Assembly (NCBI GenBank): GCA_012329085.1
Contig: JAAXQB010000292.1
Coordinates: 1 to 8,295 of the forward strand
Reading direction: 5' to 3'
Source of the DNA: Methanosarcinales archaeon
GTDB taxonomy: Archaea; Halobacteriota; Methanosarcinia; Methanosarcinales; Methanosarcinaceae
Length of the DNA: 8,295 bases
Made by a program: the position numbers and the translations under genes. The notes beneath the pieces were generated by a model. It had not been told where the DNA came from, made no database searches, and saw nothing but the letters and a program-made list of their open reading frames with translations. Positions within the stretch are counted from its first letter, which is position 1, and every line of letters begins with the position of its first letter. Of the stretch, positions 354-4,738 are shown in pieces.

Positions 354-448
354 GCTCGTTCAGAATAAAAATAAAAAAATTTTAAATTAATTCTTGAAAA
401 GAATGAGTGTTTACGCTCGTTCGTTCCGAACGAACTTTCCGAACGAGC
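354..448 (-). repeat. Structured repeat element, copy 1 (outer stem enclosing two hairpins)
   Basis: Read on the minus strand, GCTCGTTC (448 to 441) pairs with GAACGAGC (361 to 354) as an 8-bp outer stem. Inside it, GTTCGTTCG (435-427) and CGAACGAGC (423-415) form a 9-bp hairpin with loop GAA and one T-G wobble. A second hairpin, ATTCTT/AAGAAT with a three-base loop, lies at 390-404. The order (outer arm, GAAA spacer, GAA-loop hairpin, second hairpin, outer arm) matches copy 2 at 4670-4738. The aligned core, 412-449 here against 4669-4706 there, agrees at 32 of 38 positions. The two wobble pairs, in the hairpin and at the foot of the outer stem, pair only on the minus strand, the strand on which the upstream DUF4013 gene is transcribed. 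Confidence 0.75.
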
Positions 449-480
449 TCTCAAAGAGAATTAGTTTTAAGTATATAATA

Positions 481-499
481 CGAAAATCAGAGATTTTCT
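481..499. repeat. 19-bp hairpin repeat, identical (inverted) to 4709-4727
   Basis: GAAAATC (482-488) and GATTTTC (492-498) form a perfect 7-bp stem with loop AGA. The 19 bases 481-499 are the exact reverse complement of 4709-4727, where the same hairpin is the second inner stem-loop of structured element copy 2. Here it lies outside copy 1, about 30 bases from its edge, so the block has moved relative to the core between the two loci. Confidence 0.8.
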
Positions 500-502
500 A
501 TA

Positions 503-527
503 ACATATTTCTCTTTGAGAAATATGT
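503..527. terminator. Perfect 11-bp hairpin, possible transcription end of the DUF4013 gene
   Basis: ACATATTTCTC (503-513) and GAGAAATATGT (517-527) are perfectly complementary around a three-base loop. It lies 63 bases past the DUF4013 stop codon on that gene's transcript. Archaeal termination relies mainly on T-rich tracts and no clean one follows at once, so a terminator role is only a guess; it may be another member of the local hairpin array. Confidence 0.4.
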
Positions 528-589
528 ATTTACAAATTATATACAATAAAAAAGAGCCGCCATCATATGAATATATCAATATATAAATT

Positions 590-4669: not shown

Positions 4670-4738
4670 GCTCATTCGGAAAGCACATTCGGAACGAATG
4701 TGCGTATGAGAAAATCTCTGATTTTCGAACGAATGAGC
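4670..4738 (+). repeat. Structured repeat element, copy 2 (outer stem enclosing two hairpins)
   Basis: GCTCATTCG (4670-4678) and CGAATGAGC (4730-4738) form a perfect 9-bp outer stem. Inside it, GCACATTCG (4683-4691) and CGAATGTGC (4695-4703) form a perfect 9-bp hairpin with loop GAA. GAAAATC (4710-4716) and GATTTTC (4720-4726) form a second hairpin with loop TCT. All three stems can exist together as a three-way junction. A further half-arm, GCACATTC, follows at 4743-4750. The element lies between the stop of the acidic-protein gene and the start of the response regulator, in opposite orientation to both. It could act as a boundary or terminator for the archaellum block, or be a small mobile repeat. 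Confidence 0.8.

Follow-up and report, generated by a model that had tools for sequence, protein, structure and literature searches.

Three short intergenic elements with a common plan were found in the analysed stretch of DNA (the window, 8,295 bases, 28.5 % G+C): in copies A, B and C an outer stem encloses two hairpins. The copies are probably non-autonomous mobile hairpin-pair DNA elements and not a gene product. Movement itself was demonstrated only for haloarchaeal relatives, from which we infer it for the window. All three copies lie in plain spacers within 8.3 kb. A and C are neighbours 3' of a DUF4013 gene and in its sense; B is separated from them by 4.1 kb, in another spacer and on the opposite strand, antisense to both of its neighbour genes. 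The host belongs to a group that we take to be the class Syntropharchaeia. The ArlI-like ATPase of the window had 65-68 % identity to those of eight loci titled Methanophagales, Methanosarcinales, Methanomicrobia or Halobacteria, and the order ATPase, ArlJ-like protein (assigned by an NCBIfam match under its cut-off), acidic protein and response regulator was common to the window and the loci L003, L005, L006 and L007. Positions 3-176 of the plus strand likely encode the C-terminal 57 residues of a transposase; this piece shared 72 % identity with a hypothetical protein of a Legionella israelensis plasmid, and a further match bears the annotation ISNCY family transposase.

Copy A occupies positions 354..448 on the minus strand (95 nt). 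Its outer arms at 440-448 and 354-362 form 9 bp including one G-T wobble; between them follow a GAAA spacer (436-439), hairpin 1 (415-435; 9 bp with one T-G wobble, GAA loop), a linker (405-414), hairpin 2 (390-404; 6 bp, TTC loop) and an AT-rich stretch of 27 nt (363-389). Copy B (4670..4738, plus strand) has perfect 9-bp outer arms at 4670-4678 and 4730-4738, the GAAA spacer at 4679-4682, hairpin 1 at 4683-4703 (9 bp, GAA loop), the linker GTATGA at 4704-4709, hairpin 2 at 4710-4726 (7 bp, TCT loop) and three bases, GAA, before the closing arm (4727-4729). With its shorter second hairpin and the AT-rich stretch 5' of the closing arm, A is the odd one. The initial annotation had proposed a covariance model of the two copies, and such a model, built from B and a hand-fitted A (the A/B model), recovered both seeds and a third copy beside A. 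This copy C (471..544, minus strand) was matched at 470-538 with 25.6 bits and E 4.3e-6 (cmsearch). Its outer arms GTATATAAT and ATTATATAC (536-544 and 471-479, 9 bp perfect) were seen by eye and then confirmed. Hairpin 1 of C (503-527; 9-11 bp, AAA loop on the minus strand) differs in sequence from that of A and B, with the size class and the triloop kept, while hairpin 2 (482-498) is the same as in B to the letter, flanking A and G included; the 19-mer AGAAAATCTCTGATTTTCG stands at 481..499 on the minus strand and identically at 4709..4727 on the plus strand. Two triloop hairpins side by side, each with a stem of 7 bp or more, occurred twice in the window (B and C) and in none of 500 dinucleotide-shuffled windows. 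The feet of A and B were read by eye as A/GCTC...GAGC/GT; no target duplication was visible at the flanks of A or B, where filled sites alone were inspected. Hairpin 1 of A has a 3' arm (415-423) that also fits the outer 5' arm (440-448) perfectly, which gives two competing folds. The spacer of A and C further holds an AT-rich inverted repeat at 274-320, TATTTAGCT...AGCTAAATA, with a folding z-score of -2.8, which may be a further decayed copy.

The minus strand of A and the plus strand of B share a core of 38 bases with 32 identities, as the initial annotation had described. Its statement that all six differences keep pairing was confirmed: in hairpin 1 an A-T pair becomes T-A, another A-T becomes G-C and a C-G is replaced by T-G, an A-T of the outer stem becomes G-C with the partner arm altered to match, and the GAA loop and the GAAA spacer are the same in both copies. 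A covariation check on B and A covered 25 pairs and found 98 % of 50 cells paired, a count reached by 4 of 500 shuffles; it is biased towards the plan of B, to whose spacing A was fitted by hand with the AT-rich stretch and three linker bases omitted. Seven pairs had changed on both sides and two on one side, and one cell was unpaired. Four of the seven double changes fell in hairpin 2, where the sequences of A and B differ altogether; from end to end, the two copies are alike in plan, not in sequence. The two spacers reached a local score of 24 against 17.5 as the maximum of 1000 dinucleotide shuffles, and folding z-scores of A and B were between -4.9 and -6.5 on either strand. When five substitutions are placed at random in hairpin 1, all nine pairs survive with a chance of 0.7 %, so that compensation within this hairpin taken alone is no more than suggestive. 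A preference for the minus strand of A as the functional one was also proposed earlier; this claim is weak, with two wobble pairs in A as its ground, and gains from the order of parts in the relatives, which is that of the window (hairpin 1, linker, hairpin 2, closing arm).

Searches by sequence returned no further copies. BLASTN of B matched none of the 58 host-class genomes, the A/B core pattern was absent, at a tolerance of three mismatches, from 12 genomes and from 392 Halobacteriota genomes, and three core and hairpin patterns matched none of the viral contigs. The A/C spacer had two short matches among plasmids (Vibrio, Streptomyces), judged to be chance, and neither B nor one haloarchaeal copy matched phages. 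The search of related archaea with the A/B model, which the initial annotation had recommended, was successful in part: the 58 host-class genomes and 12 loci had no match, while among 34 loci seven matches up to E 1 were obtained, including L258 (E 1.7e-3) and L269 (E 4.8e-3). Rfam gave no match up to E 1 at the window elements or at seven related loci. The element sequences were not found in the open-access papers searched, to which this absence from print is limited; one short string matched unrelated papers only.

The relatives of the window copies were reached through hairpin 2 alone; the sequence, pattern and A/B model searches in class and phylum had been empty. The hairpin 2 common to B and C (GAAAATC-TCT-GATTTTC) is found dispersed in the phylum of the host. 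The exact 19-mer AGAAAATCTCTGATTTTCG occurred in four of the 392 Halobacteriota genomes, with 18 copies in genome G393, and its reversed pattern in none; the stem with a free loop was present in 83 genomes against two for the reversed pattern. Eight of 12 genomes of the family of G393 carried the stem in up to 52 copies, the host's class a single copy in a single genome (G049). Hairpin 2 was often preceded, in G393 and G305, by a hairpin with tandem G-A mismatches inside a larger inverted repeat (read by eye), exemplified at L194-L231 by GAAC GA GC GATA GC GA GTTC; such hairpins lie 5' of hairpin 2 in many copies. Among the 30 loci listed, 17 of 31 occurrences of hairpin 2 had a hairpin 1 (score 8 or more) at a distance of 2-14 nt, compared with 3 of 121 occurrences among the matches listed for viral contigs (Fisher p 1.6e-11); of the eight loci below 0.57 G+C listed first (L234-L241), only one had hairpin 1 near hairpin 2. 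A viral repeat was considered as the identity of hairpin 2, which occurs in at least 120 viral stretches, and was dropped in view of the rarity of an adjacent hairpin 1 there.

Hairpin 2 of haloarchaea sits within an element of 52-66 nt of the same shape as the window copies; genomes are called haloarchaeal here by their likeness to named plasmids. The plan takes two forms: GTCGTTC, hairpin A, GTGATGAC, hairpin B and GAACCAC, or GTCGTCC, GTGATCAC and GAACGAC. Fifteen chosen copies had 93.3 % of 328 cells paired, with double-sided changes in eight pairs (26 cells), and their covariation score of 0.222 exceeded that of all 500 shuffles. The outer stem was the weakest (82.5 % paired), and a single base in the linker changed in concert with a single base in the 3' arm in all 15. 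Forty copies from five genomes (38 distinct, two shared with the 15) used the same few hairpins in either slot. Among the 38, 632 of 643 cells were Watson-Crick, nine were mismatches and two G-T; arms changing without compensation, which according to the initial annotation would have spoken against a selected or faithfully spread fold, were thus confined to 11 of 643 stem cells here and did not occur in C. A structure model of the 15 copies, built without the window (the haloarchaeal model), matched 11 of 14 genomes tried with 2 to 64 matches each, both strands of the quasi-palindrome being counted, and gave no match in the hairpin-2-bearing genomes G324, G358 and G387.

This haloarchaeal element is mobile DNA. 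One copy matched 24 plasmid records, 12 of which were inspected in sequence; 22 had no annotated gene beneath the match, in gene tables that are incomplete, and of the remaining two one match lay over a transposase gene and one record was unannotated. The joined flanks of a copy from Halorubrum ezzemoulense matched 26 plasmid records at 41 places; the aligned haloarchaeal sites lie in this sequence. Of the 15 records listed, ten matched in one piece and five, the query's own included, in two pieces that spanned 52-56 nt more than the query. In an alignment of five one-piece records with the five two-piece records, four records had the unit precisely at the junction of CCG and CCTCC, with the order of hairpins reversed in two of them, and one record had it at a second position, GATACTG / CTCG. 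Each of these positions was empty in the remaining records, and neither had a target duplication. Such filled and empty records fit insertion or exact loss, and thus movement in either case. The end GAACGA faced CCTC in all five aligned units and in two copies at a tnpB end, seven dissected copies together. The flanks of the 38 distinct copies were not G/CCTC, which speaks against a common target; in 31-32 of them a CG preceded the unit by two bases, and in 30 a G followed it. At L269 a unit (2501-2557) lies within the 3' end of tnpB, whose annotated stop is the TGA of the unit's linker. The unit was also considered as an IS605 right end, a reading abandoned for its position inside the 3' end of tnpB in L269 and for the homologous site of L271, which holds a unit with the hairpins in opposite order.

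Among the identities named in the initial annotation, a small non-autonomous mobile or REP-like element holds best, given the third copy, the relatives in the phylum and the filled and empty haloarchaeal sites, while a structured RNA is little supported. As an RNA, A, B and C would be paralogous small RNAs or structures of mRNA ends with pairing under selection. The folds are indeed stable, although about equally so on both strands; the two wobble pairs in A fit the minus strand, relatives retain the arrangement of parts, and a rough gene call placed the 5' gene in the same sense for 10 of the 13 elements that could be scored (20 examined, seven without call; the calls are crude). Yet Rfam was empty, B is oriented to its neighbour genes unlike A and C, hairpins exchange slots, uncompensated haloarchaeal cells are mostly mismatches instead of G-T pairs, and the elements are exactly present or absent at haloarchaeal sites. 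We consider a structured RNA unlikely. A hammerhead ribozyme, a box C/D RNA and an integron attC site were considered and dropped.

The haloarchaeal model was applied to the window, where B and then C ranked first over the full model length with 18.8 and 15.7 bits (E 5e-4 and 4e-3), the match to C lying at 475-533. The other strand of B scored 15.3 bits, almost as high as C, and hairpin 2 alone yielded about 13 of the 16-19 bits; the test is partly circular because the haloarchaeal copies had been found through hairpin 2. Beyond this hairpin, GAACGA follows it in B as in four of 15 haloarchaeal copies (10 of 15 have GAACCA), and the linker GTATGA of B would resemble GTGATGAC less two bases. 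The outer arms of A, B and C are longer than or different from those of the haloarchaeal copies.

Within the 58 host-class genomes the haloarchaeal model had matches up to E 0.1 in two, G060 and G052, of which the single match in G052 may be chance. G060 had seven (best E 0.003), which are independent of hairpin 2 because this genome lacks the hairpin 2 stem; in 21 kb of its loci E values went down to 8e-8. In these loci triloop hairpins follow one another at intervals of about 25-27 bases, as many as 12 per array, and conserved linkers alternate between them (e.g., L357 1295-1609). In 18.5 kb, 59 triloop hairpins were counted compared with 0.94 in shuffles that keep single-base content only, for loci picked by the haloarchaeal model. 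Eighteen G060 units had 348 of 351 cells paired and 75 double changes; the lack of any one-sided change is partly built in, because the finder that chose them accepts only perfect stems of 7 bp or more. Fifteen further units from other loci (two among the 18), matched by a structure model of the G060 units, had 257 of 257 cells Watson-Crick after weak stem ends were trimmed. This G060 model gave at least 93 matches in G060 and six in G044, and none up to E 0.01 in the remaining 56 host-class genomes. On the window it found hairpin 2 only (E 0.23), ranked behind a match in a coding region (E 0.16), so the class has the same kind of element and not the same sequence family. The A/B model had weak matches only in the G060 loci, at other places (best E 0.045).

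In the relatives, units are exactly present or absent, hairpins occupy either slot and stems are changed in both arms. One strand of the element can fold into a Y, in which two short inverted arms close a stem around two side-by-side hairpins. The window elements would spread through insertion events, with help in trans from an enzyme that works on the folded strand or else through replication and repair. Their stems may stay paired mostly by swapping of whole hairpins or by copying of one arm from the other in DNA, a suggestion weakened because the 18 G060 units were selected for perfect stems; this selection and the differing flanks also lower our confidence in the mobile reading and in the wider one set out below. 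Arm copying alone, by template switching at quasi-palindromes, would yield compensated stems in ordinary immobile intergenic palindromes, with copies alike through local duplication, as the adjoining of A and C might suggest. We regard this as improbable: B lies 4.1 kb off in another spacer and strand, the same hairpin and plan recur across the phylum, and relatives have filled and empty sites.

For mobile elements, the enzyme might be an IS200/IS605-type (HUH, Y1) transposase that uses the folded single strand as its substrate, by analogy with the proposal for REP; this is a special case of the mobile reading, with which its probability overlaps, and we think it possible but rather unlikely. 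It would agree with the missing target duplication, with the fixed end towards the target in the seven dissected copies, with hairpins on short conserved feet and with the IS200/IS605 element at one haloarchaeal copy. Y1 transposases were detected in 30 of the 58 host-class genomes, including G044 with four, but G060, the richest in units, had no Y1 match up to E 1e-5 (the completeness of this genome is not given). Furthermore, the unit at the IS200/IS605 element sits in the 3' end of tnpB instead of the transposon end, a GTAG foot is absent, and flanks vary between copies. A Y1 transposase as a necessary partner is doubted.

The nearest described kind of element is the SMR of Haloquadratum, with REP/BIME and PATE further away. 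SMRs (short or small mobile repeats) of Haloquadratum walsbyi are described, in the available text of the source, as of non-coding size, with many copies, with inverted terminal repeats that are unrelated to known transposons and without target duplication; SMR-A has about 110 bp and SMR-B HqIRS41 80 bp, identity within a type is commonly above 95 %, SMRs often lie within other mobile elements, with PATE or IS605-type elements as preferred targets of SMR-A, and their mobilisation is called enigmatic (PMC3119063). The present elements are likewise too short to code and bear inverted arms at their ends (9 bp, perfect in B and C and including a wobble in A), and their relatives occur in many copies; the lack of target duplication is a feature of the haloarchaeal relatives. 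Compared by description and not by sequence, they differ in their length of 52-74 nt (A 95 nt) and their changing stems, and A and B share 32 of 38 core bases, below the identity within SMR types. With regard to the targets of SMR-A, two haloarchaeal copies lie at a tnpB 3' end site and the window copies in plain intergenic spacers (all SMR features as given in excerpts of PMC3119063). REP/BIME elements with TnpAREP are portrayed in the accessible portions of two reports as many-copy short extragenic palindromes with complementary stem alternatives and hairpin pairs (PMC8266576, PMC3733652). These traits recur here as short extragenic palindromes, alternative complementary stem residues and paired hairpins, but the window copies have no GTAG/CGTC foot tag, two unlike hairpins stand in one closed Y, and G060 had no Y1 match (REP/BIME traits from the same portions of PMC8266576 and PMC3733652). 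PATE (palindrome-associated transposable elements) have palindromes, no target duplication and 52-bp terminal-only forms, and in the passages available they lack inverted terminal repeats (PMC3119063); by contrast, the outer arms of the window copies pair, with 9-bp inverted arms in B. The available part of the RepRanger report holds many archaeal palindromes, none resembling the present family (PMC12306157). The ANME-1 relatives L006 and L007 also carry a modular inverted repeat in the same arl spacer, between the genes for the acidic protein and the response regulator; this palindrome is unrelated in sequence to the window copies, 115 nt long and predicted to form a single long nested hairpin, and its inner and outer parts match elsewhere in those genomes. 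Such arl-spacer repeats unrelated to the window copies lie at L006 13745-13859, L007 6788-6902 and L019 13180-13352; the repeat of L007 had ten matches each in G006 and G007, mostly partial.

A wider reading is tentative and in our view unlikely: a phylum-wide class of mobile hairpin pairs with interchangeable hairpin cassettes, arm-by-arm rewriting in DNA, stacking into arrays and spread without a dedicated transposase, for instance by replication or repair enzymes on the folded strand. Tiny mobile repeats without a known enzyme were noted in one haloarchaeon in 2011, where the available text leaves the question open (PMC3119063). With a definable plan of arm, hairpin, linker, hairpin and arm, with filled and empty sites and with the G060 units, the mover and the pairing of the stems become testable. 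If arm copying or hairpin swapping holds true, compensated stems alone would be no proof of a functional RNA.
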